Below are positions 25,977-44,133 of a stretch of 64,000 nt of DNA, in pieces. The stretch comes from Anaerolineaceae bacterium. Lineage in GTDB: Bacteria; Chloroflexota; Anaerolineae; Aggregatilineales; Phototrophicaceae. The translations under genes were made by a program, and so were the position numbers. The stretch's first letter is position 1. The number at the start of each line of letters is the position of its first letter. The DNA lies in the NCBI GenBank assembly GCA_002699585.1, contig PABP01000009.1, positions 62,001 to 126,000 on the forward strand, written 5' to 3'. The notes beneath the pieces are model-generated. The model was not told where the DNA came from, ran no database searches, and saw only the letters and a program-made list of their open reading frames with translations.

Positions 25977-26092
25977 TCTGTGCGCGTTCCGCTGGGGCGA
26001 ACGTTTCTTGAGCATTAAACTATCCCTGGGACCTCTGGTATACTAGGTTGCTCACAACTCCCATATGCCAATTTGTAGAGTGTACCGAACCT

Positions 26093-27544: not shown

Positions 27545-27566
27545 CCATTCGTCCGTCACACAATCA

Positions 27567-27601
27567 AAAAAGGGGATGCCCATCGTGAGCATCCCCTTTT
27601 T
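27567..27601. terminator. Bidirectional Rho-independent terminator
   Basis: Perfect 13-bp arms AAAAAGGGGATGC (27567-27579) and GCATCCCCTTTTT (27589-27601) between convergent rimO and the SH3 protein gene. Confidence 0.92.
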
Positions 27602-27630
27602 GTATTCTGAAAATTGTCTTTTCGGCTGGT

Positions 27631-28404: not shown

Positions 28405-28549
28405 AGCAAGTTCCCCAAATTATCTATTTCTATGATTGAAGTAGCGCTTCGAACAACACACATTAACAACAGGCATACCACACCCTACAACCTGTGGTTG
28501 TATAACGATAGTGTAATATAGTTTGTCATAACGCGCAAAGGAAATGGGG

Positions 28550-29521
28550 CTATGCATCGTTTTCTGGTGTATTGCGATATGAGGCTCTTGACTTGACCAT
28601 CGGCTTATCGCGCCGGATCGTAAATTGGTCAAAGTCGCGCACGAGGTGGACTTCTGGGAAGATAGCACGCGCTTCGTTGAGCATGTCACGTTCACGGTAG
28701 CGTCGGGAGACATGCGTTACCAGCAAGTTGCGCACATTAGCGTTCCTGGCGATTTCTGCTCCCTGGCGGATCGTCAAATGGCCGAAGCGACGGGCCATGT
28801 CTGCTTCTTCGTGGAGGAATGTTCCCTCAATGACCAGTGCGTCGGCATCCTGGACATGCGGTAGCAGCGGCTCAATGCGGCCCACATCTCCTGTAAAAAC
28901 CACTTTCACGCCGGGGATCGTCTCTCCGAGGACCTCTTCTGGCTGGATGACGCTGCCATCAGCCAGTGTCACCGCCTGTCCTTGCACCAGACGTCCACGT
29001 TCTGGTCCGAAGGGCACACCTAGCGCATCGGCTTTTTCTGCAAGGAACGGGCGATGGTCATCTTCTTTGAAGATATAGCCGTAGCAATCTGGCCCACGAT
29101 GTACTACCGGGAAAGCGGTCACTGTGAACTTTTTGCCTCGATAAAAGATGCCCGGTTCGACTGGCTTAAGATGTACCGGAACAGGCGTTTGCTGATTAGG
29201 GAACACCACCCCATACAGTAGACTTTCCACACGTTGCAAGGTCGTTTTACCGCCCCAGATGGTAAAGTCGTCGATGGTTTCCCAGCGGGTGAAAGTTGAT
29301 ACCAGCCCACCCAGGCCCAGAATATGATCGAGGTGGCCGTGCGTCAGCATGATGTGATTTAGCTTCTTAAAGCCGATGCCGCTGCGTAAAATCTGGCGCT
29401 GGGTGCCTTCGCCGCAATCGACCAGAAAGCGATCTTCGCCAGCCAGTACTGCCGCCGCCGATAGCCCCCGGTGGATAGATGGCGCGGACGCCGAGGTTCC
29501 CAGAAAGACAATATCAAACAT
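28550..29521 (-). CDS. rnz: Ribonuclease Z (tRNA 3' processing)
   Basis: A 323-residue metallo-beta-lactamase fold enzyme that trims tRNA 3' trailers. The zinc site motif THGHLDH gives H61, H63, D65 and H66; further ligands lie in PVVHRGPDCYG, VVFTGDVG and LLVTHVSRRY. The start MFDIVFLGTSASAPS is the usual one. The exosite arm region around 150-190 is present, consistent with a true RNase Z. The upstream GT-C gene ends 46 bases before it, so they may be co-transcribed. Confidence 0.93.
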   Translation of the reverse strand: MFDIVFLGTSASAPSIHRGLSAAAVLAGEDRFLVDCGEGTQRQILRSGIGFKKLNHIMLTHGHLDHILGLGGLVSTFTRWETIDDFTIWGGKTTLQRVESLLYGVVFPNQQTPVPVHLKPVEPGIFYRGKKFTVTAFPVVHRGPDCYGYIFKEDDHRPFLAEKADALGVPFGPERGRLVQGQAVTLADGSVIQPEEVLGETIPGVKVVFTGDVGRIEPLLPHVQDADALVIEGTFLHEEADMARRFGHLTIRQGAEIARNANVRNLLVTHVSRRYRERDMLNEARAIFPEVHLVRDFDQFTIRRDKPMVKSRASYRNTPENDA

Positions 29522-29567
29522 GAATGGTCCTAATGTGTTTCGATTAACTCAAGATTGCTCTATGCCA

Positions 29568-31580
29568 TCATCGATTGGATAGGACGTTGATGTTATAGAG
29601 GATCAGGCTGTTGCTCTGTGGTTCGTCGTCTAGCAGGGCGTCCAGGCGTAGGCGTGATGTCCACTGGTAGGCGCCCACCGACAGGGTGTATGTCCCGTCG
29701 GAAATGGCCTCTGGCAGTTCGATGAACGTCACCTGGGCGACGATGTCACGCTCGCGTAGGCGGCCCGCATCCATGCTTAGCTCGTCGCGCTGGGCCACAA
29801 TAGTCACTGGATCGCTCAAGATGTGGTTGAAGAAAGTCAGATCTGGTGGAATCACACCTTCGATGCGCCAGTAATTGGTCACAGCGACGGTGTCCCCCGG
29901 CTGATAAACGGGTAGCTCATTGGATTCATAGCCCAACCAGGTAACGTTGCCCCCGAACCGAATTGGCGGTGGCGTCCACTGGCCATCGGGCGCGTTAAAG
30001 CGCGCCGGGGAAATCGTCACAAATTTGCCCATTTCATCAGCGACTGTCTGCTGGATGTCCATATCAATGACCGAGTTTTCTGGCAGGTTGGGGTCCAGCA
30101 GTGGGCGACCGATGCGCAGCCAGTTGGCAATGCTCGGATGAATCCTGAACACCTCATTTTCTCCGGCGACAATCACTTGCTGATGCCCACCGCCATCGGC
30201 GAAGACCAATGATTGGCGACAGTCAACGAAGCGGACGTCGCTGGTGGGTCGGTTCATCATCAACAGGACAAGTTGCGTGTTGTTGAGCCGCCTATAGCGC
30301 GTGAAGTCATCATAGCGCTGGTGACAGATGACTGTTGGCAGCGTGCCCGCTGTCTGGTCGATATGTAGCGCCAGATGGCCCAGGTCACTCTGGTATGCGA
30401 CTTGCATATCTTCGTTTTGCGGCCATACCGTGAACAGATCATAGGCTGTCCAGATAGCATTACCGAGGATGAGTCCTACCAGCCCAACCACAGCCAACCG
30501 TTGATAAAGTGGTCGTCGCAGCCAGCCGATGACGATCTGCACGCCCAACCCAAAGCACAGTGCAATCGGCGGCAGCAGCACGCTCATCGCCAGGAAGTTG
30601 GGCGGCGCTACAGCGATGAACCCGGTTGGGATCATGAAGATCAGCATGATGAGCAGGACCGCATAACGCGGTTGTCGCCAGTTGCGGATACAGGCGATCA
30701 GGCCGATTAGCGCCAATATCGAGCTAATGGGGCCGATGAGCGGACGCCCTGGTATGTTAAAGGCCGGGTTCAAGTCACCCTGGATGCCGATGCCCAGGAA
30801 TCCCGTCCACATCGAGCGCAGCAGACCGGTGCTTGACTCGAACAAACGCGACCCGGCGGCAAGGTCCGGCAAATTGATGCTGGAGAGCAAATAGGGCGTC
30901 ACCAGGATGAAGATGATTAAAATCGAAAAGCCGATGTAACTCAGGCGGCGCGTGGAAAGAGGACGCTCCGTGAGGATGATGTACGTAATGAAGGTCATCG
31001 CCCCCAGGACGATCATCAGGCTGGCGGCATGTAAATAAAAACTCATGCCCAGCAGCGCGCCCAACACGGCAAACGAAGTGATATTGGTACTTTCCGTGGT
31101 GTAACGGCGATAAACAGGCAGTGCCCGTGCCAGGACCAGCATTACCGCAACCACCAGCAGCGGCAAAAATGCCTGGATGACGATCAGCCGCGCCAACAGT
31201 GAAGCCCATAGCATCACAGCCAGCAAGGCCATCGCTGACAGACCCGCCACACGTCCAAACAGGCGTACACCTGTCGTATAGACCAGCGTCAGCATAACGA
31301 TATTGGCCAGCACGGACATCATTCGATAGCCGATAGAGCCGGTACCTGTGCCCAACCGGGTGAAGGCCAGCGCCGTGTAATACAAATTCTCGCGCGCGTC
31401 ACCGCCGCCGACTGGATAAAATACGCGAATATCCCCGGCGCGCACGGTATCGCTCAGGCGCAAAGTGAGTACTTCCTCTGCATGCAAGCCGATGGGCACG
31501 GTGGTTAGCTCCCACATACGCAAGCCCGTCGCCAGCAGCAGAATCAGTACCGCAATTGCATAACTTACCCGGCTAGACAA
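29568..31580 (-). CDS. Large GT-C type membrane protein with C-terminal beta domain
   Basis: 670 residues. The first ~400 hold about 11 membrane segments; the first loop has the acidic pair in LHAEEVLTLRL, as in GT-C glycosyltransferases of the ArnT/PMT group. The C-terminal ~250 residues are soluble, with a beta-sandwich-like part (TWLGYESNELPVYQPGDTVA, then DGTYTLSVGAYQW) probably outside the cell. The start is TTG at 31580, supported by GGAAGG upstream and the lack of any nearby ATG. It lies downstream of the CopD-like and glycosidase genes on the same strand. Donor and acceptor are unknown. Confidence 0.75.
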   Translation of the reverse strand: MSSRVSYAIAVLILLLATGLRMWELTTVPIGLHAEEVLTLRLSDTVRAGDIRVFYPVGGGDARENLYYTALAFTRLGTGTGSIGYRMMSVLANIVMLTLVYTTGVRLFGRVAGLSAMALLAVMLWASLLARLIVIQAFLPLLVVAVMLVLARALPVYRRYTTESTNITSFAVLGALLGMSFYLHAASLMIVLGAMTFITYIILTERPLSTRRLSYIGFSILIIFILVTPYLLSSINLPDLAAGSRLFESSTGLLRSMWTGFLGIGIQGDLNPAFNIPGRPLIGPISSILALIGLIACIRNWRQPRYAVLLIMLIFMIPTGFIAVAPPNFLAMSVLLPPIALCFGLGVQIVIGWLRRPLYQRLAVVGLVGLILGNAIWTAYDLFTVWPQNEDMQVAYQSDLGHLALHIDQTAGTLPTVICHQRYDDFTRYRRLNNTQLVLLMMNRPTSDVRFVDCRQSLVFADGGGHQQVIVAGENEVFRIHPSIANWLRIGRPLLDPNLPENSVIDMDIQQTVADEMGKFVTISPARFNAPDGQWTPPPIRFGGNVTWLGYESNELPVYQPGDTVAVTNYWRIEGVIPPDLTFFNHILSDPVTIVAQRDELSMDAGRLRERDIVAQVTFIELPEAISDGTYTLSVGAYQWTSRLRLDALLDDEPQSNSLILYNINVLSNR

Positions 31581-31708
31581 AAAATGGTCCTTCCAAAAAG
31601 TGCACTAGGAGCATGATGCCCTCAGTACCGAATATCTCGTAATAGCTTCGCTATGTTACCATCGCAGGCAGCAATGTGCATCAGCCAGTGATAACTGCTT
31701 CAACTTGG

Positions 31709-32215
31709 TCAGATCGCTGTTGCCCATGCACTGAACCCCAGCACACACATGCCCAAAATGACGTTCAGCCATGTTAAACGGACCTCCCGCTGGCGTAGCT
31801 TGGCCCATTCCTCGGCATTGCCTTTATTGCGTTCTAAAAGCATGGTGGTGCGTTCTAAAGAGGGGACGACGCCATATTGCAGCAGCCACCCACTGAGCGC
31901 CATCAGCACGATGGTGAGGTGCTTGGCCAGCATGACCCGGCTCCATTCATTGTCGAAGGTCATGATGCCATCGTAACTGGGGTCGGCAGTCATCTGGAAC
32001 AGGCCGGTGACGATCAGCACACCCAGGCTGATGTTGCTGATGGGATAAAAGCGCTTACGCAAGCGCGTCAGCAGGCTGTACAGCGAGGGCGTATTTTCCA
32101 GCACGCGCCGCATTTCCGGCCATACCAGCAGGGCCGTTATGAGCAAACCACCGATCCAGATGACGGTTGCAGATAGGTGAAAAAATAGACTAAGGGCAAG
32201 TTCTGGGTGGCTCAT
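31709..32215 (-). CDS. CopD-like four-helix membrane protein
   Basis: 168 residues with four hydrophobic segments. LFFHLSATVIWIGGLLITAL, GVLIVTGLF and MLAKHLTIVLMAL match the CopD/DUF2269-type fold, in which conserved His residues bind heme or metal; His in FHLS and KHLT are visible. I chose ATG 32215 with GGAG 10 bases upstream; a GTG at 32245 is possible. Its start overlaps the end of the upstream glycosidase gene by 26 bases, so it belongs to that operon. Confidence 0.7.
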   Translation of the reverse strand: MSHPELALSLFFHLSATVIWIGGLLITALLVWPEMRRVLENTPSLYSLLTRLRKRFYPISNISLGVLIVTGLFQMTADPSYDGIMTFDNEWSRVMLAKHLTIVLMALSGWLLQYGVVPSLERTTMLLERNKGNAEEWAKLRQREVRLTWLNVILGMCVLGFSAWATAI

Positions 32216-33398
32216 TACCTGTAAACTCCGGGTGTCCTGGGTCACGATAGGGCAATGTTACCGTATCGCAGGTTTTAGGCATACGGGCAACCGCGAAAAA
32301 GGCCGGACGGGTGCGGCCATCCGGGGCCACCAATGCCCACCAGCTTTCTTCGTCGGCTTCGGTCCAGGTGGGGTCCGGTAGATAGATGAGCGTCATCAGG
32401 CCGACCCACGGCGACCAGTTCTCAAGGGCGTATTCATAGGCCGCGACGATATTTTCCGCTTGTTCGTCTTCGCTCACACTGAACCAACTATAGGCCGGGT
32501 CGAGTGTGTCCGTCGTCCAGCCCATTTCTAAGATGGCCATCTGTCGGGCAGCATCGCCGTTGGCGACCATGATCTTGCGTAGGTCTTCCACACGCCGGAA
32601 GCTGGCCCAGCGACCGTTGCCATCTTGTTCGGCATCATCCGGGCCGTAACTGGGCACGTTGTAGCCTGGTGCATGTGCGCCGACGACATCCACATATTGC
32701 TGGAAGTCGGCATCGTACATGGCTTGCAAATATAGATCATCGCGTTGGGCGGATGCATCGTCATTACCCGTTGGCGATAGCCCCGCTGAGATGATGATCG
32801 CTGCCGGGTCCGCTTGCTGGATAGCCTCGCTGCATGCTGCCAGCATCTCGACATAGGCGGCTGCATTAGGAACTTGTTCGCCCCATTCTCGCGCCAGGTT
32901 GGGTTCGTTCCATACTTGGTACGCCTGAATGCGGCCTACATAGCGCTCCGCGACCGTGCCGCAGTAATTGGCGAAATCGGCGATGTTATCGGGCGGGCCG
33001 TCATGCGCATCGCTATCTTGGCTGCTAATAGCCCAATCGGGCGTCAGGCCGAGGCGTGCTACCAGATGTAGCTCGCGCCGTTCGACGCGGTCCACGACCA
33101 GATCAGCCCGGTCGAAGTGCCATTCGCCCGGTTCCGGCTCCATATCGCGCCAGGAAAAAATCTGCTTGACCGTGTTGAATCCCAACATGCGCACCCAATC
33201 CAGATGCGTGCCCACCTGACCTTCATCCCACCAGACGAAGGTATGCAGCGCATACGTTAGCGAGGGAAAAGGTGGGTCGGTGATGGCATCCCCACGGAAC
33301 GGATCGCTTGGTTGTTGGCTGAGTAGGGCCGCAGCCGTCAGTGCAATCGCACCCACGCCGCTGACGATACCTGCCCATAAGCGTTTGGATCGGGTCAT
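32190..33398 (-). CDS. Surface GH-A type glycosidase, array member 4
   Basis: 402 residues: a single N-terminal membrane anchor or signal (WAGIVSGVGAIALTAAALL) and one TIM-barrel domain of glycoside hydrolase clan A. The acid/base Glu is in YQVWNEPNLAREW and the likely nucleophile Glu in MAILEMGWTT. It is the most divergent of four paralogous tandem genes and lacks the shared C-terminal end. Clan assignment is from the two Glu motifs and overall barrel pattern; family number and substrate cannot be given. Probably acts on surface or environmental polysaccharide. Confidence 0.8.
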   Translation of the reverse strand: MTRSKRLWAGIVSGVGAIALTAAALLSQQPSDPFRGDAITDPPFPSLTYALHTFVWWDEGQVGTHLDWVRMLGFNTVKQIFSWRDMEPEPGEWHFDRADLVVDRVERRELHLVARLGLTPDWAISSQDSDAHDGPPDNIADFANYCGTVAERYVGRIQAYQVWNEPNLAREWGEQVPNAAAYVEMLAACSEAIQQADPAAIIISAGLSPTGNDDASAQRDDLYLQAMYDADFQQYVDVVGAHAPGYNVPSYGPDDAEQDGNGRWASFRRVEDLRKIMVANGDAARQMAILEMGWTTDTLDPAYSWFSVSEDEQAENIVAAYEYALENWSPWVGLMTLIYLPDPTWTEADEESWWALVAPDGRTRPAFFAVARMPKTCDTVTLPYRDPGHPEFTGNEPPRTCP

Positions 33399-33469
33399 AA
33401 ACTGGACTCAGGAAATGGTGTGTATATCTGTCCCAAATGGGAAGATTGAGCAATCTCTGATGCGTCCCA

Positions 33470-33512
33470 GACCCCCATCCTCGGTCCTTCCCACGAAGGA
33501 GGAAGGATGCCT
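33470..33512. repeat. Interspersed palindromic repeat, copy B
   Basis: CCCCCATCCTCGGTCCTTCC, a short centre, and GGAAGGATGCCT. It matches copy A at 15517-15557 with changes only in the loop region, as expected for a mobile or REP-like element. Confidence 0.75.
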
Positions 33513-33540
33513 TTCTTATGAACATGCTGTACACAAGTCC

Positions 33541-33561
33541 CCTCTCCTACGGGGAGGGGAT
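33541..33561. repeat. CCCCTCTCC/GGGGAGGGG hairpin
   Basis: CCCCTCTCC (33541-33549) and GGGGAGGGG (33553-33561) around a TAC loop, followed by ATTTAGGCGTGGGGTTC. It lies 28 bases from copy B; together they fill much of the 302-base gap 33399-33700, which otherwise contains no gene. Confidence 0.65.
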
Positions 33562-33645
33562 TTAGGCGTGGGGTTCGGGATAGGAGGCTAAACTGCATTT
33601 GATACAGGCCTTCTAAATCGTGTGCTTTGATCATGTGACTACAAA

Positions 33646-33671
33646 GGGCACACCCATGCTGGCGTGTGCCC
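33646..33671 (-). terminator. Hairpin after array member 3
   Basis: GGGCACAC and GTGTGCCC arms with a 10-base loop; read on the minus strand it is followed by TTTGT. A weak Rho-independent terminator just past the stop at 33701. Confidence 0.6.
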
Positions 33672-33700
33672 CCAAGTTACTATCTATGCTGAAACCAGCT

Positions 33701-35152
33701 TTAGCCGCCGGACTGCATCCGCTGGTTATAGGCGGATTGCCATGAGCGCACAGCATCATAGGCCGGGCGGAACTGGAAGTTGGGGCCAATGAGCGAGTAG
33801 GGCACGTTGTCGTTATCGGGTGCCCAACCAGCCTGTGGCGCATAGTTGAAGTTCCAGATGATGCCCAGGCGCACCCAACCGTATTCGTCCATCATTGTCA
33901 TGGCTTCCGGGATCCACTGCGCTTGTTCTTCCAGGGTGTTATCCAGCGCGAAACCGAAGCCATCCGGCACGCCTTCCAGGTCTTCGCCAACAGCCCAGCC
34001 GAACTCTGTTACGCACAGCGGGATGTCATAGTTAGCTGCCACGATGCGGTTGCGATAGCCTTCTAGCGTACTACGGAAGCTCCAGCTATGGTGCGGATTG
34101 TCATATGGCCCGCGGAACTGCGCAGTCGGATCGTTGACCACCTGATCGTAAGCTTCGCTGGGGCCAATGTTAAAGCCATTGACATGCGAACCCACGCAGT
34201 CAGTGACATCCAGCAAACCTGCTGAAATCATCTGCTCCAGATAAACGAAGTCATCAACGGCCATCACACCATCGTTGATGCCCGTCTGTGACAGGGCACC
34301 ACTGATAATGATGATATTCGGGTCTATGGCTTTGACCGCGTTATAGGTTTGACGCAGCATCTCGACGTAGTTAGTCGCACTCAGGCCGCCGGTCGATGTC
34401 CATTCGCGGTCGAGGTTCTGCTCATTCCAGACCTCGATGGCGTGGACCTGGCCGGGGTAACGCTGAACGATACTGGTCACGAAGTTGACATAAGCGCTGA
34501 TGTCGGCAGGTGGGCCTTCGCGCCCCAGCTCGACACCCGGTTCACGCGCCCAATCCGGCGCCGTGACGATGCTCAGGGCCATCTTCAAGCCCAGGTGCTG
34601 GGCACTGGGCATCACGAAGTCGAGGATTGCATAGTCGATTTGGCCCGGTTCGCGTTCGAAGTCTTCCCAACGCACCTGCTGCTTGACCCAGGGCAGGCCC
34701 AGGTCGTCGGCTACCGAACGATAAAAACCGTCCTGGTTATCGGGGTTAAAGTCCAGACTGTACTGCACCTGGATCCCCGCTTCAAAGTGATCGACATCCA
34801 CGGGTGGCACGGTTGGCTCCGGTGTGGGGGTGCTTTCCGGCGCGGCCTGGGCCACTTCGACAGGTTCGTTGGTCGCTTCAACTGGGGCTTCAATGACGGC
34901 CTCTGTGGGGGCTTCTGTAGGTACAGCCGTATCAGCCGGGGTGATGCTCGGCTGGACCAGCACAACATCGCTGTTGTTCTGTGGTGGCAGCGCGACATTT
35001 TCTGACGCGCCCAGGCCCGTCACAAGGGGATAGGCGAAGTAGATCGCAATAAACGTAGCGAAGCCCATCGCCAGTGTGACGAACGTCCATACGAGGATGA
35101 ACCCGCGCAGACGTTTGCGCGTCCGGGTTTGTGGCGAAATGGTGGCAGTCAT
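33701..35152 (-). CDS. Surface GH-A type glycosidase, array member 3
   Basis: 483 residues: basic N-terminus, one membrane anchor (about 18-45), a ~70-residue Pro/Glu/Thr linker, then a TIM-barrel domain. The acid/base motif is IEVWNEQNLDREW, with Gln where the other copies have Pro; the nucleophile motif is LCVTEFGWAVGED. TAGGAG lies 9 bases before the ATG. Its start is 46 bases after the stop of the next upstream paralogue, so the array is probably one transcript here. Anchored outside the cell with the barrel held away from the membrane. Confidence 0.83.
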   Translation of the reverse strand: MTATISPQTRTRKRLRGFILVWTFVTLAMGFATFIAIYFAYPLVTGLGASENVALPPQNNSDVVLVQPSITPADTAVPTEAPTEAVIEAPVEATNEPVEVAQAAPESTPTPEPTVPPVDVDHFEAGIQVQYSLDFNPDNQDGFYRSVADDLGLPWVKQQVRWEDFEREPGQIDYAILDFVMPSAQHLGLKMALSIVTAPDWAREPGVELGREGPPADISAYVNFVTSIVQRYPGQVHAIEVWNEQNLDREWTSTGGLSATNYVEMLRQTYNAVKAIDPNIIIISGALSQTGINDGVMAVDDFVYLEQMISAGLLDVTDCVGSHVNGFNIGPSEAYDQVVNDPTAQFRGPYDNPHHSWSFRSTLEGYRNRIVAANYDIPLCVTEFGWAVGEDLEGVPDGFGFALDNTLEEQAQWIPEAMTMMDEYGWVRLGIIWNFNYAPQAGWAPDNDNVPYSLIGPNFQFRPAYDAVRSWQSAYNQRMQSGG

Positions 35153-35198
35153 AGTGCTGTCTCCTAAGCTTAACGATCAGATGGGTACGATCAGAGTA

Positions 35199-38087
35199 TT
35201 AGCGGGCAGCGGCCAGCGCATCACAGGCCGGACAAGAGCCGTCAGGCCGGATGATGGCATAGCCACCCTGCGGATCGGATGCGTACAGCGTGAAATCAAT
35301 ATTCCAGACGATCATCATCTGCGCTTTGCCGCTGTTAGATAGCAGCGAAGCCGCCCCGGCCAACCAGGCCGCTTGCTGGGCGACGGTCGTATTTTGACCC
35401 CATGCCCAGAATGACGGCAGCGCCGGGTAGCCTTCTGGCGTCAGATAGCCCAATTCGGTGATGCAAATCGGACGTTGGCCGCCGATGATGTTCCAGTGTT
35501 CGTTGAGGAACAACGAGAGATAACGAGTGTAGTAATTGTCACCACGCGGATCGCCGCTGGTGGCAGTTGGTGGGACCGCGCCTTCGTTATAGTGCATACC
35601 CAGGCAGTCCATGTAATTCAGACCACCCGCATCGACGACCTGCCGTAGCCAGTTATTATCGTTAACTACCTGTCCAGGGTAGGCATTCTCCGCGCCAGTT
35701 GGCGAGGGAGCCGCGCCGATGACAATCGTGCTGCCATTGGCGCTCTTGATCGACTGATAAGCCAGCCGCAGCATATTGACATAACCGCCGCCACTGATCT
35801 GGTTACGCGGCCATTCACGGTCGATATTGGGTTCGTTCCAGACTTCAATGGCATCTGCGCCGGAAGCGGCGATGGCACCCAGCCAGTTGGCGAACTCACG
35901 CAAATAGGCTTCGCCACCTGCGGCGACATCTGCCGGGTTGCCGACTGTGCCGACTAGCGCTTTGAACCCGGCGGCGTGTGCCTGCCCGACGAAGGCAATC
36001 GCGTCAGAAGCATCATAACCGGGGTAAAAGCGAATCTGTTTCTTCATCCAGGTCATACCGGAGCGCTGCATAGCGCCTATAGCCGCGCCGCTGACGTTGT
36101 GGACATGGCCACCCAGAGCGAAATCGCCGATGCTGCCTGCGGCGGGTGCCACTGCACTAAATCCGCCACCCGTTGACCCGGCTGTCGGGATGATCGGTGC
36201 AGGTGTTGGCGTGACAGTGGGCGTCGGTGTGGGTGTCGCTGTCGGTGGGGGCGTGGGTGTTGGCGTCGGTTGGAACAGGGCCACAGCCGCACCGCTACGC
36301 ACGCTCTGGTTGGCTTCCTGGCCGATGCCGACCACAGCCACGTTAACCGCATAGTTGCCGTCGGGCGCTTCCAACGTGATGATGAGATCTTCACGCAGGC
36401 CCGTCGTGATTTCATCGACAAGGCCATTGGCGCTCTCGACGCTCCAGCGCAGGGCCAGGTCAGTCGGTGATGGTGCGCTTGGTATCTGCGTGCGATAGTC
36501 TTCAACGGCGGCGTACACATCTTGTGCCAGGTCGTTACTGAGCATGTCCTCAAAGGCGACACCGCCCAGTGCGAACGGAATCGTCATGTCCATGCGGTAG
36601 CGTAGGGCATCACCAGTCGTTAGCCAGATGCGTGCGCGCGGCGTTTCGTCGGCGTTCAAATAGTCAATATAGGGCGCGTTGATGATCGTATCGACGCCCG
36701 CGTTGGCTTGCAGGCCATCCAGATAAGCGCGGATTTCGCTGCCTGGTTCAATCGAACCCGTTTCGCTGACGTTAGGTGCCTCTACCACGACATTACCCAT
36801 ACCAGCCAGCGCGGCATCATAGCCAATTGTCGTAAACGCGCCTTCAAACTCGCGCACGGACTGTGCTGTCAGGCCCAAGGTGATCTTATAGCGATTCATC
36901 TCACGGATACCCCAGCGCAGCATGGCCTCGACCAGTTGCGTTTCACCAGGGGTATAGGTTTCCGGGTCCAGGCCCATGTCGATCTGCACGATGTCGGCGC
37001 CTTTGCCAATCGCGCGCCAATCGTATGCGCCTGTCTGCCAGACGCCATCGACATTTTCCGCAGCCGGAACCACCACGCCCAATAGTAGGCCGAGCGTATC
37101 CATACGCTGGCCCAGGTCGCTGATGAAGGTGCTGAAGTTATCGCGCTGATCTTCGCTCAGGCCGCGATAGTCGATGAACACGCCATCATAGCCGCCAACA
37201 CTCGCTAATTGGGCAATGCCCGACGCATGCTCGTTGCGCAGCGTGCGATTGCCCAAAATTGTATTGGCTGTTGTTGTATCCAGCGCACGCGGGTCGGCAA
37301 AGTCACGGATGATGGGCATCACGAGATAGCCGTTATTGGTATCGAAACCCGGTGCTAGACTGCCGATGATCTTGCCATCCAGCGTGGGTTGCAACCCTGC
37401 CGGGGCGACGACTGTCGCCAGATTGGCGGTGTCGGCATTCAACACCTGTGACACGTCATAGCTGATGACCACGCGCGGCGTATCCGGTGCGGCCTGGAAA
37501 AGCGCCACATGCTGGTACAGCTCGTCAGTTGTCGCTTCCAGACGATTATCGACCACCTGCGCCGGGATGAATTCCCATGCCTGGGTTTCATCTTGCCAGC
37601 CGTACAGGTCGAGCAAGTCACGTTCCGGGGCGTTACCGGGTATGTTGATGCTGTAGACCAGCGCATCGGGTGTGTCGCCATTGGTTTCAATGCTATAGAC
37701 CGGGCTTTGCAGTGCCAGATAATAGGGTACCGCACTGCGCGTTGTCGGTATCCATTCCTGCGTGCTGCCATCATTCGCAACGTAATCACGCAGGCCGATG
37801 GCACTCAGATTGGCTCCAAAATCATCGCTGGGAGCCGCTGCCACCAGCCTAAAACCCTGATCGGTCGTCGTCAGGCTCTCGCCCGGTTCTGCCAATGGCA
37901 CGAACTTGGGGCCAAACATGCGATCATACAGGTTAATGGGCGGCAAGAATAAGCCGACGATCACGAGTACAAAGACGATGAAGGCCGTTAGCGAGGTGAC
38001 AATCCAGCAGCCCGGTGTATTACGTGGCCCAGGCGGACGATCATCAAGAGGGATACGCGGATCGGCGGGTTCGGGGTTTACAACCAT
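35199..38087 (-). CDS. Two-domain surface protein: GH18-like plus GH-A glycosidase, array member 2
   Basis: 962 residues. A proline-rich cytoplasmic start and membrane anchor (about 28-50) precede a GH18-like barrel (about 150-480) with YDGVFIDYRGL where active GH18 enzymes have DxxDxDxE; Arg replaces the catalytic Glu, so this part is probably non-catalytic. A beta module and a (TPTP)n linker follow, then the GH-A barrel (about 660-955) with IEVWNEPNIDREW and ICITELGYLTPEGY, ending IIRPDGSCPACDAL. GAGG precedes the ATG. It sits between two shorter paralogues. The GH18-like part may bind a chitin- or peptidoglycan-like glycan while the GH-A part cuts. Confidence 0.82.
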   Translation of the reverse strand: MVVNPEPADPRIPLDDRPPGPRNTPGCWIVTSLTAFIVFVLVIVGLFLPPINLYDRMFGPKFVPLAEPGESLTTTDQGFRLVAAAPSDDFGANLSAIGLRDYVANDGSTQEWIPTTRSAVPYYLALQSPVYSIETNGDTPDALVYSINIPGNAPERDLLDLYGWQDETQAWEFIPAQVVDNRLEATTDELYQHVALFQAAPDTPRVVISYDVSQVLNADTANLATVVAPAGLQPTLDGKIIGSLAPGFDTNNGYLVMPIIRDFADPRALDTTTANTILGNRTLRNEHASGIAQLASVGGYDGVFIDYRGLSEDQRDNFSTFISDLGQRMDTLGLLLGVVVPAAENVDGVWQTGAYDWRAIGKGADIVQIDMGLDPETYTPGETQLVEAMLRWGIREMNRYKITLGLTAQSVREFEGAFTTIGYDAALAGMGNVVVEAPNVSETGSIEPGSEIRAYLDGLQANAGVDTIINAPYIDYLNADETPRARIWLTTGDALRYRMDMTIPFALGGVAFEDMLSNDLAQDVYAAVEDYRTQIPSAPSPTDLALRWSVESANGLVDEITTGLREDLIITLEAPDGNYAVNVAVVGIGQEANQSVRSGAAVALFQPTPTPTPPPTATPTPTPTVTPTPAPIIPTAGSTGGGFSAVAPAAGSIGDFALGGHVHNVSGAAIGAMQRSGMTWMKKQIRFYPGYDASDAIAFVGQAHAAGFKALVGTVGNPADVAAGGEAYLREFANWLGAIAASGADAIEVWNEPNIDREWPRNQISGGGYVNMLRLAYQSIKSANGSTIVIGAAPSPTGAENAYPGQVVNDNNWLRQVVDAGGLNYMDCLGMHYNEGAVPPTATSGDPRGDNYYTRYLSLFLNEHWNIIGGQRPICITELGYLTPEGYPALPSFWAWGQNTTVAQQAAWLAGAASLLSNSGKAQMMIVWNIDFTLYASDPQGGYAIIRPDGSCPACDALAAAR

Positions 38088-38172
38088 AGTGACCTCAGAT
38101 TCGGAAACAAGTGCTCAATGGGAGCGCGTGTGATGGCGCTCCCACAAATCATGAACGATATAGGGCTGGGGG

Positions 38173-39870
38173 TCAATTGCCCAGGGCAGCGCAGGCTGGG
38201 CAGCTTCCATCGGGCCGGATAATCGCATAACCGCCCATGGGGTCATCGCCGTAGATGCCCGTGAAATCAACATTCCATACGATAATCAGGCGGACGCGGC
38301 CACTGCTGCGGCCCCGGCTGATAGCGCCATCAAGCCATGCGGCGTGTTCCGCCACGCTGGTATCCCCCGCCCAGGCGAAGCCACCCGGCAGCGGACCGTA
38401 GCCCTCTGGCGTCAGGTAGCCCAATTCCGTAAAGCAAACGGGTTTACCGAAGGTGCGATAATACAGGTTGACCATGCTGCCATAGTAGCGTGTATGGTAT
38501 TCGCCGCGCGGGTCGCCCGATGTCCAGTTGGGCGGCACGATGCCTTCGTTATAGTGGGCACCAGCGCAATCCATATAGCGGCTCGCGCCTGCCGCAGCCA
38601 TCTGCTGGATGAAGGGCTGGTCATCGCAGCCTGCGCCACTACAGCCACCGAAAAATCCGGTTGGGGCTGGGGCGGCACTGACGACCATCGTATTGGCGTT
38701 GACGGACTTAATCGCATTGTAAGAGGCAGCTAGCAACTGCGTATAATTGGCGCCGCTGATATGGCCACTGGGCCATTCGCGGTCGATGTTCGGCTCATTC
38801 CAGACTTCCACCGCATCCACGCCTAGGGCCGCTAGACCCGCGACATACCCCGCATAGGCGTCGTTATAGCCGCCGTTCATCACCTGGCCGGGATCACCGA
38901 CCACGCCCAGCAGCACCCGGAAACCCAGATTGTGCGATTCATTGATGAAGCCGGCCCAACCGCTGGGGTCATCGCCCTGATTGTAGCGCACCTGGATTTT
39001 CACCCAGGTCATGCCCGCTTGCCACATATAATTGGCCGTGGTCGTGTTCAAATTGCGGATATGGCCACCGTAGGAAAAACCACGTACCGCGCTGTTGCTG
39101 GTGACGGGCGGTGGCAGAGCCACATTGCTGGTATCCGGTGCGGCTTCTTCTGCGGCAGGTGCGGGTGCGCCACCACCCGGAATCGGCAGCGAGAAAGGCG
39201 TATCTGCGGAAATCGCAGGTAGCGATAATATTTCATTGATAGTGATGCTGGTCAAATTCGCAGCCACCCAACCGACTTCACCGCGATTGTTAGCACCGCG
39301 TACCCAGTTGAGGTTGCCATCTTGGCCATCGACCAGCAGCGTGTCGCCATAGCTGACACCACCCACACGCCGGAAATCGGTGCCGGGGCCGCTGCGCATG
39401 TTCAAATTGCCATTGGCCGTGATCGTGACGCCGTTGCCGCTGGGAGCGGCATTATTGGCTGGGGCCTGGGGCGCGCTCGGTTCGGGCTGCTCGGCGGGGG
39501 CGCTGGGCGCTTCCACGACTGCACCGGGCGGGGGCGCTGGGACTGTAATGGGGGCTTCGCAGTCGATCACAGGCAGGGTTGCGATCTGATCCGTGCCGAC
39601 GCTCAGGTTATCAGGGGCATAAATCCAACCCACGTTACCATTCTGGCTGATACCGCGCACCCAGGTATTGTCGCTGATGCGGCCATCGAGGGCGATGTTC
39701 ATGCCCGTTTGCAGGGTAGCGACCCGCCGCCACTGCGTCCCGGCGCACACGCGCAGCGACAGGTTGTTCTGTGCGGCAGCGACCAGGCCTTGCGCTTGGA
39801 TGACGCCTGCCATCATAGCTAGCATCATCAACGTAAAGGATAGTCTGAACAGGAACCCGCGTTGTTTCAC
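38173..39870 (-). CDS. SH3-SH3-GH-A surface protein, array member 1
   Basis: 565 residues. A signal peptide (LSFTLMMLAMMAGVIQAQ) is followed by two SH3-like modules (LSLRVCAGTQWRRVATLQTG; LNMRSGPGTDFRRVGGVSYG), Pro/Ala linkers, and a GH-A barrel with VEVWNEPNIDREW and VCFTELGYLTPEGY, ending IIRPDGSCPACAAL. Start is GTG at 39870 with AGGCAAGAGG upstream. It is the first gene of the four-paralogue array. SH3 modules would bind the wall while the barrel hydrolyses a glycan; its C-terminal 290 residues are closest to member 2. Confidence 0.85.
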   Translation of the reverse strand: MKQRGFLFRLSFTLMMLAMMAGVIQAQGLVAAAQNNLSLRVCAGTQWRRVATLQTGMNIALDGRISDNTWVRGISQNGNVGWIYAPDNLSVGTDQIATLPVIDCEAPITVPAPPPGAVVEAPSAPAEQPEPSAPQAPANNAAPSGNGVTITANGNLNMRSGPGTDFRRVGGVSYGDTLLVDGQDGNLNWVRGANNRGEVGWVAANLTSITINEILSLPAISADTPFSLPIPGGGAPAPAAEEAAPDTSNVALPPPVTSNSAVRGFSYGGHIRNLNTTTANYMWQAGMTWVKIQVRYNQGDDPSGWAGFINESHNLGFRVLLGVVGDPGQVMNGGYNDAYAGYVAGLAALGVDAVEVWNEPNIDREWPSGHISGANYTQLLAASYNAIKSVNANTMVVSAAPAPTGFFGGCSGAGCDDQPFIQQMAAAGASRYMDCAGAHYNEGIVPPNWTSGDPRGEYHTRYYGSMVNLYYRTFGKPVCFTELGYLTPEGYGPLPGGFAWAGDTSVAEHAAWLDGAISRGRSSGRVRLIIVWNVDFTGIYGDDPMGGYAIIRPDGSCPACAALGN

Positions 39871-40213
39871 CCTCTTGCCTCCACAAAGACTTTATGCAGT
39901 AAGACTTCTCGTAGTCATGTATTTGGTAGAAAAGTTTTTGGTCGTGTTTCTGCTAAACGCATTTTCGTGAAAATCGGGCTGATATGCGCGCTGTTGCTGA
40001 TCGCCCCCTGGGAATTCTGTGCAGGGTGGCGCGGGCGGCATTGTAGCAGAGGGTGGGGCCTTTATCAATCGGTGTCGCCCGACGCCTGACCCACGCTCAT
40101 ATGACATCAACTGGGGGCAGAATGCCGTATTTTACTGCTAACGGAAATACGGTACACTGCTGCCCACGACCCATCAACACTGCAATTCATATCAAACAAC
40201 GGAAGCCAATGCC
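39871..40213. other. 343-base divergent intergenic region
   Basis: Separates the glycosidase array from the methyltransferase gene and must hold promoters for both. I see AT-rich segments around 39890-39970 and GC-rich ones around 40000-40090, but no promoter, hairpin or small gene I can support. Confidence 0.5.
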
Positions 40214-40978
40214 ATGTCTGCTTACTATAACTTGATTGCCCGCTATTATGATTCCCACACGGATGATGATGATCTGGCAGTGTACAGCCAATTGGCCGAG
40301 GAATATGGCGGTCCCATCTTTGATGTGGGCTGTGGGACCGGGCGCGTGCTGTTGCATTTAGCACAGGAAGGGTACAAGGTACATGGCATTGATAACAATC
40401 GGGCCATGCTCGATTTGTTCGATGATAAGCTGGCCGCGCTGCCGCAACTGGCAGAAAACATCTCCTATGCTGAAGGCGATGTGCTGAGCTATGAAGATAG
40501 CACGCGCTATTCTCTCATCCTGCTGACCTACAACGCGCTGATGCACTTCCATGAACAAGATGTGCAGATCGCCCTGCTTGAGAAATTACGCAGCCTGATA
40601 GCTGACGATGGCCTGCTGGTCATCGACCTGCCCAACGCGGGCGATACCTTCGCTACCGAAGACAGTGACAGTATCATTTTCGACCGCACGTTCCTCGACC
40701 CTGAAACAGGCTACATGGTGATGTTGCAGTCCTTTAGCGAGTTGGACCGCACCACGCAGCTTATGCAGGTCGATTGGATATATGACATCATCACTGAGGA
40801 TGGCGCAGTTCGCCGTATCGTCGCACCGCACCTGCTGCGCTACTACTTCTACCCGGAAATCAAGCTGCTGCTGGAACGCACGGGTTTTACCATCGAAGGG
40901 GTTTTCGGTGATACCGATGGCAACCCCTTCGAGGATGGTTGCGAGCGCATGATTGTCTACGCTGCGCCTGCTACATAA
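40214..40978 (+). CDS. Class I SAM-dependent methyltransferase
   Basis: 254 residues. The start SAYYNLIARYYDSHTDDDD resembles small-molecule methyltransferases. Motif I is IFDVGCGTGRVLLHLA, with the acidic end of strand 2 in VHGIDNN and motif II in GDVLSYED. The C-terminal half is a beta-rich lid (YMVMLQSFSELDRTTQLMQV). The substrate cannot be told. AAGCC-type weak ribosome-binding site. It converges on the tryptophanase gene with 13 bases between stops. Confidence 0.88.
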   Translation: MSAYYNLIARYYDSHTDDDDLAVYSQLAEEYGGPIFDVGCGTGRVLLHLAQEGYKVHGIDNNRAMLDLFDDKLAALPQLAENISYAEGDVLSYEDSTRYSLILLTYNALMHFHEQDVQIALLEKLRSLIADDGLLVIDLPNAGDTFATEDSDSIIFDRTFLDPETGYMVMLQSFSELDRTTQLMQVDWIYDIITEDGAVRRIVAPHLLRYYFYPEIKLLLERTGFTIEGVFGDTDGNPFEDGCERMIVYAAPAT

Positions 40979-40991
40979 TGCGTGCTTCTGC

Positions 40992-42386
40992 TTATTCAAC
41001 CGGCGCCATGCGGATGGTGAAGTGCCGCAGAACGGGCGCTTGTTCAACGATGCGATAACCGGGCAGCGTGTCGCGGCGTTCATACAGTGCCAGCAGGACT
41101 TCCGCCAGATAGTCGACATGGCTCTGCGTATACACTCGCCTGGGGAATGCCAAGCGCACCAGATCCATTGGCGCGGGCTTTTCCGTGCCATCGGGCTGCA
41201 TGCCGAACATGACCGAGCCAATCTCGACGCCGCGCACGCCACCCAGCAGGTAGAGCGCATTGGTCAGTGACCACGCCGGATACTGGTCATCGGGGATATG
41301 GGGCAGCATGGCGCGCGCATCAATGTACAGCGCATGGCCACCTGTCGGCTGCACAATCGGGATGCCTGCCGAAGAAATCTTCTCGCCTAAATACGCCACT
41401 GAGCGAATCCGATAGCGCAGGTAATCTTCGTCGAGCGCTTCGTATAAGCCGACAGCAATCGCCTCCAGATCGTAACCCGCCAAACCACCATAAGTCGGGA
41501 AACCTTCCGTCAGGATCAGCAGGTTGCGGCATTGCTGGGCGAGGGTATCGTCATTCAATGCCAAAAAGCCGCCGATGTTGGCCATGCCATCTTTCTTGGC
41601 GCTCATCGTGCAGCCGTCGGCATAACTAAAGAGTTCACGCGCGATCTCAATCGGCGTCTTATCAGCATAGCCTTCTTCCCGCAGTTTGATGAACCACGAA
41701 TTCTCCGCGAAGCGGCAGGCATCCAAAATGAAGGGCAGGCCATAACTATGGGCCAGCTCACTGACCGCTTTGATATTCGCCATGCTGACGGGCTGGCCAC
41801 CGCCGGAGTTATTCGTCACAGTGGCCATAACAAAGGGAATGTTCTCTGGGCCGACACTCTCAATCGTTTCGCGCAATTTGTCCAAGTCCACATTGCCCTT
41901 GAAAGGGTGGATGGTCTGCGGTTGGCGGCCCTCTGCAATGACCAGATCGCGTGCTTCACCCTTGCAGACTTCAATGTTGGCGCGGGTCGTATCGAAGTGC
42001 GTGTTGCTGGGGATGACCATGCCTTCGGTCACGGTTGAGGAAAACAGAATGTGCTCAGCGGCGCGTCCCTGGTGGGTCGGAATAATGTGCTTGAAGCCGG
42101 TGATGTCTTTAACGGCATTCTCAAAGCGATAGAACGAGTCCGACCCGGCGTAGGATTCGTCACTGGCGATCATGGCTGCCCACTGGCGCGAGGACATCGC
42201 ACCCGTGCCGCTGTCGGTCAGCAAGTCGATCAGGACGTGCTCGGCCCGCAGCAAAAACGGATTGTATCCAGCCTCGGCCAGAGCATCGCGCCGTTGCTGG
42301 GGCGTCGTAAATTTGATGGGTTCCACCGAGCGTATCTGAAACGGCTCGATAATCGTTTTGATGTCAATATCGTAGTATTTGTTCAT
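40992..42386 (-). CDS. tnaA: Tryptophanase (tryptophan indole-lyase)
   Basis: 464 residues, PLP fold type I, splitting L-tryptophan into indole, pyruvate and ammonia. PLP Lys is in TMSAKKDGMANIGG (K265 by my count), with DACRFAENSWF binding the ring nitrogen. Tyrosine phenol-lyase is very similar; I favour tryptophanase because VRGVEIGS and the terminal VLRHFT carry the tryptophanase-type residues (phenol-lyases have VRSMERG and LRFFT). Start at 42386, since the upstream 33 codons look non-coding. No tnaC-like leader with a Trp codon was seen. No transporter gene is adjacent. Confidence 0.87.
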   Translation of the reverse strand: MNKYYDIDIKTIIEPFQIRSVEPIKFTTPQQRRDALAEAGYNPFLLRAEHVLIDLLTDSGTGAMSSRQWAAMIASDESYAGSDSFYRFENAVKDITGFKHIIPTHQGRAAEHILFSSTVTEGMVIPSNTHFDTTRANIEVCKGEARDLVIAEGRQPQTIHPFKGNVDLDKLRETIESVGPENIPFVMATVTNNSGGGQPVSMANIKAVSELAHSYGLPFILDACRFAENSWFIKLREEGYADKTPIEIARELFSYADGCTMSAKKDGMANIGGFLALNDDTLAQQCRNLLILTEGFPTYGGLAGYDLEAIAVGLYEALDEDYLRYRIRSVAYLGEKISSAGIPIVQPTGGHALYIDARAMLPHIPDDQYPAWSLTNALYLLGGVRGVEIGSVMFGMQPDGTEKPAPMDLVRLAFPRRVYTQSHVDYLAEVLLALYERRDTLPGYRIVEQAPVLRHFTIRMAPVE

Positions 42387-42675
42387 CAGGTGACCTGTTT
42401 GCGGGTTAGTTGAATGAGATTGAAGGGTAACAAAAGATGCTGTACCCGACGAGATAATAGGCTCATTTATCCAAATCGAAAACACCTGTTACGAGCTTAA
42501 CCGGAATCAGTTTGCTAACATGCCCATAACAGCCTTGCCGGATTGAGCGTAAAATCAATCCAGCAGAATATAACGGAAATCCCACCGTCCTGCGCTTACG
42601 AAGTGTCGATGTGAACCGTTTTTGTGGTGACGTTAGAACCTAATGTCGCGCCTGATGCAGGGCCTGATCTATGGC

Positions 42676-43002
42676 CTAATCTACAATAAAGTAGCGGATC
42701 GTAAACGAGAGATACTCGTTGGTCGCTTCGGAGAAGTCATGCACGACGCGGTCAACCTGGGCCGCCGGTGACCCTCTGTAGAGGAAGTTCAACAATTGCC
42801 GGAGCTGCTCAGGTGTGCCTTCGGCTACGACTTCAACCGATCCATCGGGTTGGTTGCACACATACCCGGTGACGTCTAAGGTGCAGGCTTTTTGCTGAGT
42901 AAAGTAGCGGTAGCTCACCCCTTGGACGCGCCCGGATACAATGGCGTGCAGGCGCTGTTTAGTCAGGATCTGTTTGGGTGGGTGGGTTTCGATTTCGCTC
43001 AT
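42676..43002 (-). CDS. acyP: Acylphosphatase
   Basis: 108 residues. The phosphate loop and catalytic Arg are in VSGRVQGVSYRYFTQQ, and the catalytic Asn in GYVCNQPDGSVEVVAEG. It hydrolyses carboxyl-phosphate bonds. A ~20-residue N-terminal extension precedes the usual start. ATG 43002 has AAAGG upstream; a TTG at 43023 is possible. The 289-base gap between it and the tryptophanase gene holds no gene I can see. Confidence 0.92.
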   Translation of the reverse strand: MSEIETHPPKQILTKQRLHAIVSGRVQGVSYRYFTQQKACTLDVTGYVCNQPDGSVEVVAEGTPEQLRQLLNFLYRGSPAAQVDRVVHDFSEATNEYLSFTIRYFIVD

Positions 43003-43055
43003 CGCTAAGCCTTTCAAGCTCAACTTGGCTGGTGACTATCGACGTTATGTCGATA

Positions 43056-43084
43056 TTGACATTGTAACACTTCAATCGTATACC
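43056..43084 (+). promoter_or_regulatory. Sigma-70 type promoter for the lipoprotein at 43115
   Basis: Perfect TTGACA at 43056-43061, 17-base spacer, TATACC at 43079-43084. The ATG follows 31 bases after the -10 box. Confidence 0.7.
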
Positions 43085-43114
43085 AAATCGGCATGCAAAG
43101 TATAGGATCATATT

Positions 43115-44008
43115 ATGCAGCGCCAAACGCCCAGTATTTGTACAGTTTGCTCAATAATAGCCGTCATGTTGCTGGTTTTGGTGGGCTGTACCCCGGCTGG
43201 GAACGCGCCTACCCCCTATGCGACCCGAACCCTCAGTGCGCCAGGTATCGTAGCTAGCCCTACGATTGACCTACAGACGTCAGAAGAATTGTACGGCTCA
43301 GAGTCCGGTTACACGGGCAATGTGGGCCAGAGCGACCTGACGGCGGCCTCGCTGCCATCGCGCGGTGTGCTGCCCCCGGCGGCGGCGACCTTGGAAGGCG
43401 CTGACGACAGTGTCGATGCCGCCTCGAGCGTTAACATCACCCTGGTTGATGGCTCGTTGTGGCATGGTGATCTGTATTCGCCGCTGCCCGGCTTACAGCC
43501 CGATCCGACCGTACGGGTTCCAGGAGTGTTGCTGGTGGCCAGCGACCGCGTCGGCTGGGGTTTGCTCCCGGCTCAGTTACAAATTAATGGCCTAGCGGCT
43601 CTGGTCGTTGATGCGCCTGCCAATGCGATTGACCTCGTGACTGTGCTGGAGTCGCTCAGTGAAGTCGGCAATGTCGATCCCGGTCGGCTGGCCCTCATCA
43701 GCGCCGATACCAGCATTCCGGTATCGTTAGCGGGCTGTGACCTGTCTGGTTTGTGCGATGCTATCGTTTTACTCAGCCCGATGGATGCCGATACCACACT
43801 GGTCGAGTCGCTGAGTGCCCAGCCCATGTGGATCGCCGCTGCCAACTCCGATGGTCAGTCCTACCCGGTGGCCCTGTCTTACATGACCATTGGCAGCAAC
43901 GTCACTTTCACAGAATACAATACGGGGCAGGGCACGGGCCTGCTGACCAACGAAGGCGTCATCGAGGATATCGTGACATGGTTGAACGATATTCTTGCTG
44001 GCCAATAA
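43115..44008 (+). CDS. Lipoprotein with degenerate alpha/beta-hydrolase-like fold
   Basis: 297 residues. Signal peptide and lipobox IAVMLLVLVGC lead into a Thr/Pro-rich linker, then a domain with the alternating pattern of an alpha/beta hydrolase (VPGVLLVASDRVGWG, LAALVVDAPANAIDLVTVL, IVLLSPMDADT, final helix EDIVTWLNDIL). Where a hydrolase has GxSxG there is LALISADTSIPVSLAGC, so the nucleophile elbow is not conserved. Probably non-enzymatic, tethered outside the membrane. It has its own strong promoter and terminator, so it is a single-gene unit. Confidence 0.75.
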   Translation: MQRQTPSICTVCSIIAVMLLVLVGCTPAGNAPTPYATRTLSAPGIVASPTIDLQTSEELYGSESGYTGNVGQSDLTAASLPSRGVLPPAAATLEGADDSVDAASSVNITLVDGSLWHGDLYSPLPGLQPDPTVRVPGVLLVASDRVGWGLLPAQLQINGLAALVVDAPANAIDLVTVLESLSEVGNVDPGRLALISADTSIPVSLAGCDLSGLCDAIVLLSPMDADTTLVESLSAQPMWIAAANSDGQSYPVALSYMTIGSNVTFTEYNTGQGTGLLTNEGVIEDIVTWLNDILAGQ

Positions 44009-44084
44009 TGGGGCATATCTAAAAGGGTGTTTTTGAGCTTCGTGGGGACGCATCACGCTGCATCTGACCAATTTACAGTAATCA

Positions 44085-44113
44085 AAAAGGACGGGTACGA
44101 TTCCCGTCCTTTT
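44085..44113. terminator. Bidirectional Rho-independent terminator
   Basis: Perfect 11-bp arms AAAAGGACGGG (44085-44095) and CCCGTCCTTTT (44103-44113) with a seven-base loop between the lipoprotein gene and pheT, which converge. Confidence 0.92.
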
Positions 44114-44133
44114 GCATTCTGTTGTACGGGCTG

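Follow-up and report, generated by a model that had tools for sequence, protein, structure and literature searches.

Four adjoining genes for PslG-like clan GH-A barrels in a Chloroflexota genome, one of them with a GH18-like module lacking the catalytic glutamate

Results

The four-gene array and its barrels

The window analysed here is the whole of a 64,000-nt stretch of Anaerolineaceae bacterium (Chloroflexota), namely positions 62,001-126,000 of contig PABP01000009.1 (GCA_002699585.1) on the forward strand; all coordinates below are positions in this window. It carries an array of four adjoining minus-strand genes, called g4, g3, g2 and g1 from high to low coordinates, each of which encodes a barrel of glycoside hydrolase (GH) clan A (GH-A). 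From the list of open reading frames (ORFs), g4 (38173..39870, 565 aa) consists of SH3 modules, a linker and the barrel. According to its ORF, alignment and structural model, g3 (35199..38087, 962 aa) consists of a membrane helix, a beta domain, a GH18-like module, a second beta domain, a Pro/Thr linker and the barrel; the same three sources give g2 (33701..35152) as an N-terminal helix, a linker and a PslG-like GH-A barrel. Gene g1 (32190..33398) combines an N-terminal hydrophobic segment with a PslG-like GH-A barrel, as read from its ORF and profile matches. The genes are separated by 85 bases (g4-g3), 46 bases (g3-g2) and 302 bases (g2-g1).

A preliminary description of this DNA had proposed four consecutive paralogues on the minus strand with one GH-A type barrel and two catalytic Glu motifs, and the ORFs, the barrel alignment and the pairwise comparisons agree with it, including the coordinates. 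In the four-barrel alignment, the identity to g4 is 51% for g3, 31% for g2 and 23% for g1. BLASTP comparisons covered four of the six barrel pairs and gave 50% identity over 298 columns for g4/g3 (E 1e-104), 32% for g2/g1 (E 4e-39), 28% for g4/g2 (E 1e-37) and 35% over 101 columns for g4/g1 (E 4e-15). The acid/base motif V-W-N-E-x-N is invariant, being WNEPN in g1, g3 and g4 and WNEQN in g2, and the motifs of the nucleophile Glu across the four barrels are CITELG, CFTELG, CVTEFG and ILEMG. For g4 (barrel 38176..39087, minus strand), homology assigns the acid/base to Glu359 (38794-38796) and the nucleophile to Glu482 (38425-38427), and for g1, also by homology and on the same strand, the catalytic residues are Glu165 (32904-32906) and Glu291 (32526-32528). 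The corresponding residues on the minus strand are Glu752 (35832-35834) and Glu878 (35454-35456) in g3 (barrel 35202..36125), and Glu244 (34421-34423) and Glu383 (34004-34006) in g2 (barrel residues 117-483). An alignment of 126 barrels, drawn from related loci and the same genome, shows both Glu in 122. The C-terminal sequence IIRPDGSCPAC, which the preliminary description had noted in the copies at 35199 and 38173, is indeed common to g3 and g4, with R..G.CPAC kept in aligned relatives.

Structure prediction was run on g2 and g3. Both models are predicted to form an eight-strand (beta/alpha)8 barrel with the first Glu after strand 4 and the second on strand 7 (Glu244/Glu383 in g2; Glu752/Glu878 in g3), an arrangement characteristic of clan GH-A, and neither gave a fold other than GH-A; g1 and g4 were assigned by homology alone. 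The AlphaFold2 model of g2, built from a 21-row alignment, has a mean predicted local distance difference test score (pLDDT) of 82.3. When compared with PslG it gives Z 31.3, with a root-mean-square deviation of 3.0 over 322 residues at 20% identity, and the next fold matches are the GH39 structure 5jvk (Z 29.7) and then GH164 (Z 26.9). Foldseek also ranked PslG first. The fold-search list of g3 was filled by GH18 chains, and thus its barrel is unranked by fold. In sequence searches, PslG is the solved structure that ranks first for the g2 sequence alone (E 9.8e-10) and for the profiles of g2 (1.2e-16) and g1 (2.8e-22), while the g3 and g4 profiles match it weakly (E 0.0026 and 0.0052), in the latter case tied with a beta-xylosidase at E 0.005. 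Therefore, the four genes encode homologous clan GH-A barrels, and the closest solved structure is PslG.

The Pfam model of GH39 (PF01229) does not reach its cut-off in the array: g1 scores 17.9 bits against 26, and g2 to g4 have no PF01229 row. Among the 19 proteins of the g1 line, 11 match the model at E 1e-3 or better, the best at 1.1e-8. Since Pfam alone is ambiguous, the barrels are described here as PslG-like clan GH-A enzymes, without assignment to GH39.

The GH18-like module of g3

Residues 203-535 of g3 (36483..37481, minus strand) form a GH18-like module. The Pfam GH18 model (PF00704) gives 22.0 bits for g3 in the window, under the cut-off of 29.6, and reaches E 1e-3 or better in 13 of the 21 aligned g3 proteins. 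The g3 profile matches the solved GH18 structures 4q6t (E 5.3e-22), YdhD (7.8e-20) and SleL (1.4e-17). The g3 model, with a mean pLDDT of 83.6, aligns with 4q6t at Z 29.2 over 288 residues and with SleL (4s3k) at Z 28.5 over 296.

GH18 enzymes carry the catalytic motif DxxDxDxE. In two printed profile alignments the Glu of L-D-F-E or I-D-F-E stands opposite the Arg of I-D-Y-R-G in g3, so the catalytic Glu is replaced by Arg308 (37164-37166). The position was read in 40 aligned proteins, 21 from the order and 19 from elsewhere (with three near-identical pairs among the 19): it is Arg in 34, Gln in 3, Gly in 2, Asp in 1 and Glu in none. In the 30 best-scoring module loci, with one fragmented locus counted once, it is Arg in 26, Gln in 2, His in 1 and Glu in 1. 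Seven of these genomes, our own included, were already in the 40-row set, and the 23 genomes new to it give Arg 20, Gln 1, His 1 and Glu 1. The sole Glu belongs to locus L229 (genome G121), which reads LEYEG. Asp306, two residues before the catalytic position, and a Tyr-Asp-Trp stretch are largely kept. A separate observation concerns an 822-aa protein of genome G096 (L181:5970-8438), whose GH18-like part has DYDD at the catalytic place and which has no barrel match.

The g3 module thus has a GH18 fold of the SleL/YdhD type without the catalytic Glu. The preliminary description had recognised the GH18-like domain; the loss of its catalytic residue, together with the wide distribution of the array, goes beyond it. 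As the acid is lost, the groove is kept and Arg is favoured, we propose that the module would serve as a non-hydrolytic, glycan-binding module.

Other modules and anchors

The N-terminal parts differ between the four proteins, as had been described. In g4 they are SH3 modules: the second copy (residues 154-205; 39256..39411, minus strand) matches SH3_3 at E 4.3e-10, and for the first copy a profile of 18 relatives matches the SH3 part of the autolytic lysozyme 4krt at about positions 39-102. SH3_3 is present in 16 of the 18 proteins aligned for the g4 position, and among related loci the N-terminal part at this position is variable. Besides the GH18-like module, g3 holds two beta domains (approximately residues 60-200 and 544-604) and a disordered Pro/Thr linker with pLDDT < 50 (residues 608-642; 36162..36266, minus strand). 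The g2 model starts with a helix (7-46) followed by a disordered linker (45-116), and the N-terminus of g1 is, by eye, a hydrophobic segment.

Spread and gene order in relatives

Searches with g3 found matches in all 61 genomes examined, our own and 60 relatives. In at least 40 of the 61, one of the matches listed covers both the GH18-like part and the barrel (starting at query residue 146 or earlier and ending at 959 or later), several other genomes being cut by contig ends. In the class sample, the g2 search matches 144 of 150 genomes, and all six misses belong to one family, f34; in three of these, the g3 search finds very weak matches (E 8e-5 to 5e-4). The GH18-like module alone has a match in 130 of the 150 genomes, not including the six of f34, and in 113 of the 130 the match is single, though a few single matches (e.g. 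in G043 and G155) are short and lie in frames < 400 residues, and ordinary GH18 proteins may account for them. The phylum sample has g3 matches in 110 of 201 genomes, many of them through the barrel alone.

Gene order was read in 20 related loci of families f1, f2, f3, f4 and f6 of the order; these were chosen by their g3 match, so the shares are not population frequencies. At least four barrels stand in a row in 16 of the 20, with five in L141; in L139 g1 is split over two frames, g4 is absent in L126, L134 and L135, and L132 is cut by a contig end. All 20 keep the GH18-like module in g3. A CopD gene lies next to g1 in 15, a GT-C-like glycosyltransferase gene is found downstream of g1, in the same orientation, in 17, and a metallo-beta-lactamase gene is present in 18, in one of them on the other side. 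We also read 20 class and phylum loci. In 15 of them the GH18-fused barrel adjoins a barrel of g1 or g2 type, and the CopD and metallo-beta-lactamase genes were each found in L173 alone. Relatives of the GT-C-like protein are found in 59 of 60 class genomes and are mostly distant. In L141 of genome G037 (L141:6361-14661), three consecutive barrel proteins replace g4-g3, two of them matching the N-terminal part of g3, and this arrangement suggests a local duplication.

Neighbouring genes and signals

The preliminary description had placed a CopD-like gene and a GT-C gene behind the array. The former stands: a small membrane protein (31709..32245, minus strand) matches PF05425 above the cut-off (E 7.9e-11), and its gene and the end of g1 overlap by 56 bases. 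The latter is a candidate membrane glycosyltransferase (29568..31580, minus strand), since its match to PF13231 (PMT_2) is sub-threshold at 24.0 bits against 26.1. Next on the minus strand is a gene of the metallo-beta-lactamase fold from the ORF list, RNase Z-like by eye (28550..29521). At the far end of the same-strand run lies a gene (27631-28404) whose secreted product combines SH3-like modules with a linker of Pro-Thr-Glu repeats, and a MurJ/MviN-like flippase, named by eye, is encoded at 20691-22487.

The g2-g1 gap contains a dispersed repeat of about 110 bp (33467..33575, without strand), found by a search of the same genome. It has 39 further places among the 40 scored of 129 candidates, 79-88% identical, and no inverted repeats were found in the gap. 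In the 20 related loci the g2-g1 gap is about 110 bases or less, or the genes overlap, with the exception of L139, L132 being cut there. A promoter-like site upstream of g4 (40040..40068, minus strand), called from a consensus match alone, has 10 of 12 consensus bases and a TG ahead of the second hexamer; 13 promoter-consensus sites were found in the region against 7.9 expected. The terminator scan gave 12 sites against 10.3 expected, and therefore transcript ends cannot be called. There are no tRNAs in the 64-kb window.

Evolutionary history of barrels and modules

In a tree of 126 barrels, the g1 barrels, the g2 barrels of the order and the g3/g4 types fall into groups of their own. Each of g1 and g2 is one orthologue line across the order, and g3 and g4 separate within family f1. 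In f3, f4 and f6 the barrels of the g3 and g4 positions mix, so that g3 and g4 cannot be followed with certainty as orthologues outside f1, and a later duplication or gene conversion may have occurred in these families. We rejected a recent tandem duplication with module shuffling, because the barrels cluster with barrels of the same position in other genomes: g1 and g2 across genomes, and g3/g4 within f1.

The GH18-fused barrels do not belong to one type. Those of the order and of f11, f17, f18 and f42 are of the g3/g4 type, and those of f9, f13, f22, f23, f31, f32, f40, f45, f58 and f66 are nearest to g2. A single origin of all fused barrels was rejected by the approximately unbiased (AU) test, with a log-likelihood (lnL) 740 worse and p 1.6e-74. 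The test used 28 of 41 fused rows, 28 of 85 others and a quick tree, with the fused group named after the first tree was seen; the 13 fused rows left out were near-duplicates, had a long branch or were removed by thinning. In the tree of the GH18 modules, which has long branches, the two barrel types lie on two sides of one branch with support 85. The simplest account would be one old barrel replacement behind a retained GH18 module, and two independent fusions of related GH18 modules are also possible. The module swapping suggested by the preliminary description therefore does not hold as a recent event, given the single orthologue lines of g1 and g2, and stands as one ancient exchange of barrel type beside the GH18 module, according to the trees and the AU test. 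Overall, the comparisons support ancient paralogues and a module exchange that probably took place once, deep in time, and would not be the reason for the four-gene array.

Other barrels of the genome and envelope genes

The genome has 11 barrel matches. Two of these proteins (L191 and L194) carry two LysM domains each in addition to the barrel, and in L194 (L194:6316-8190, C35 of the same genome) the nucleophile Glu is changed to Arg (TRFGW), so that this protein is perhaps another pseudoenzyme. By eye, the barrel protein of L193 has a lipoprotein-like start, that of L195 has a hydrophobic helix at its end, and the barrel gene of L197 lies beside glycosyltransferase-like genes. The 1034-aa protein of L196 (L196:5421-8525, C35 of the same genome) fuses a PslG-like GH-A barrel, with WDEPN and not WNEPN, to the O-antigen-ligase domain Wzy_C, and nearby genes encode a GT4 glycosyltransferase, an NAD epimerase and another Wzy_C protein. 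Penicillin-binding transpeptidases have 9 matches in the genome.

A link between the barrels and peptidoglycan was also sought in 15 genomes, six of f34 without and nine with g2-type barrels, and found no support, transpeptidases and SH3_3 each being present in 15 of 15. The six f34 genomes (G086, G119, G146, G167, G185 and G202) are nearly complete, belong to one family and have SH3_3.

Discussion

LysM, SH3 and SleL-type modules are typical of wall-bound proteins and wall hydrolases. From these modules, the company of Wzy_C and glycosyltransferase genes and the presence of transpeptidases, we arrive at anchored endo-glycosidases for a self-made polymer. The reading we favour, and consider somewhat probable, is that the array encodes retaining, PslG-like endo-glycosidases of clan GH-A, an ancient set that works outside the cytoplasm to trim or transfer a surface polysaccharide made by the cell itself. 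The suggestion of a surface-glycan locus in the preliminary description is plausible on the same footing, because the neighbourhood recurs in related loci, as the synteny comparison found.

What we infer for the substrate and the physiology of the array is as follows. The four proteins would be held on the outside of the membrane or in the wall by an N-terminal anchor, an SH3 module or the GH18-like module. Each barrel would hydrolyse or transglycosylate an internal beta-linkage of a polysaccharide made by the cell, through a covalent enzyme-sugar intermediate as in PslG. The dead GH18 groove of g3 may grip an N-acetylglucosamine-containing strand of peptidoglycan or of a wall polymer as the barrel of the same protein acts on a chain next to it. 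The product of the downstream GT-C-like gene could transfer a sugar, taken from a lipid carrier, onto the polymer on which the barrels act, and the four copies might divide length control, release and attachment of the polymer among them.

Several observations weigh against this reading. The identity between PslG and the g2 barrel is about 20%, the sequence match of the g3 and g4 barrels to PslG is weak, and g1 is above the Pfam cut-offs for GH5 and GH42, not GH39. The nucleophile is lost in L007 (of the same genome, to Arg) and in L171 and L182 (to Ala), and the g3 of L140 is without both barrel Glu. Among the matches listed, g3 finds only the barrel in families f7 and f8 of the order, and therefore the g3 fusion is not universal even within the order. 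The six f34 genomes encode transpeptidases yet have no match for g2-type barrels or the GH18 module; the system is therefore not needed for a peptidoglycan wall as such. SH3_3 is common in the genome (73 matches), so the SH3 module is no specific sign. Finally, no polymerase, flippase or export genes were recognised by eye beside the array (26000-46000), where no family search of all neighbours was made. Concerning L140, we add that its g3-position protein (L140:7522-10620) has VWRNMN and TRLGY in place of the Glu motifs and that the four-gene array is retained there.

A bolder form of the favoured reading, to which we give a low probability, is a class-marking envelope machine, built on a widespread protein with mostly one match per genome. 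In it, the GH18 fold would have been made into a glycan grip by the change of Glu to Arg and joined to a PslG-like transglycosylating barrel, and a secondary wall polymer would be cut and re-attached at the peptidoglycan surface, with the paralogues dividing the steps.

On the other hand, the four enzymes could be nutritional, digesting environmental beta-glycans at the surface and multiplied for breadth of substrate. Clan GH-A includes many digestive enzymes, and the GH5 and GH42 matches of g1 as well as the 11 barrel matches of the genome would fit such a role. Digestive loci usually vary with diet, whereas 16 of the 20 related loci have the array, 15 of the 20 class and phylum loci have the GH18-fused barrel beside one of g1 or g2 type, and the GH18-like module is a single match in 113 of the 130 class genomes that have one; moreover, a reading of 26000-46000 by eye turned up no recognisable gene for sugar uptake. 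We regard a nutritional role as improbable.

Rather more doubtful is that the barrels remodel peptidoglycan, acting directly on its glycan strands in growth or division and targeted by the SH3, LysM and SleL-like modules. Such modules, SleL-type GH18 included, do occur in wall hydrolases, and the genome encodes transpeptidases; against this, the top fold matches of g2 (PslG, GH39, GH164 and GH5) act on neutral sugars, and the f34 genomes have transpeptidases without g2-type barrels. Lastly, we consider it very improbable that the GH18-like module catalyses through a different residue, with the barrel as its partner enzyme: one of the 30 loci (L229) has Glu at the position, and Asp306 and the Tyr-Asp-Trp stretch are largely kept, but the other 29 loci and all 40 rows lack this Glu, and the dominant Arg has the charge opposite to that of the acid needed.

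Comparison with known systems

The Anaerolineae, the Aggregatilineales and other Chloroflexota are mostly known from metagenomes, and their envelopes have been little studied. The recurrent cluster is a concrete handle on which surface polymer such cells build and how, and PslG-type probes already exist for testing g3-like enzymes. The open-licence literature searched on PslG, GH39, GH18 pseudoenzymes, SleL and Chloroflexota envelopes gave no description of the cluster or of an Arg-type GH18 module, nor of the combination of a pseudo-GH18 with favoured Arg and an active-looking endo-glycosidase in one protein.

For the GH18-like module, the SleL/YaaH/YdhD-type GH18 proteins (spore cortex-lytic and related) share the fold of g3 residues 203-535 and its profile matches, but the catalytic Glu of the g3 module is replaced, mostly by Arg, and the module is fused to a GH-A barrel. 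The chitinase-like lectins also have the GH18 fold, with CHI3L1/YKL-40 and Ym2 at Z approximately 25 and Ym1 and SI-CLP in the Foldseek list. The solved ones are mostly animal proteins, whereas the g3 module is bacterial, belongs to a two-domain protein and favours Arg. That GH18 includes lectin-like proteins without chitinase activity is stated in an earlier paper (PMC3662789). PgaB of exopolysaccharide loci, which another study gives as a two-domain polysaccharide-export protein with a glycoside hydrolase domain (PMC5933820), is a parallel to g3 in how it may work, by description alone.

The nearest known relative of the barrels is PslG of Pseudomonas aeruginosa (CAZy GH39), the Psl endoglycosidase, which is tied to the exopolysaccharide Psl. 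It shares the GH-A barrel and the aligned NE acid/base Glu and is the best match of g1 and g2. In work on PslG (PMC11912335), it is described as a retaining endo-beta-glucosidase whose acid/base and nucleophile are postulated to be Glu165 and Glu276, and an inhibitor was found bound covalently to Glu276. The difference is that here four paralogues adjoin each other, have CopD-like and GT-C-like genes as neighbours and differ from PslG in their N-terminal modules. PslG-like barrels are thus known, and what is new is a recurrent array of them in which one member carries a pseudo-GH18.

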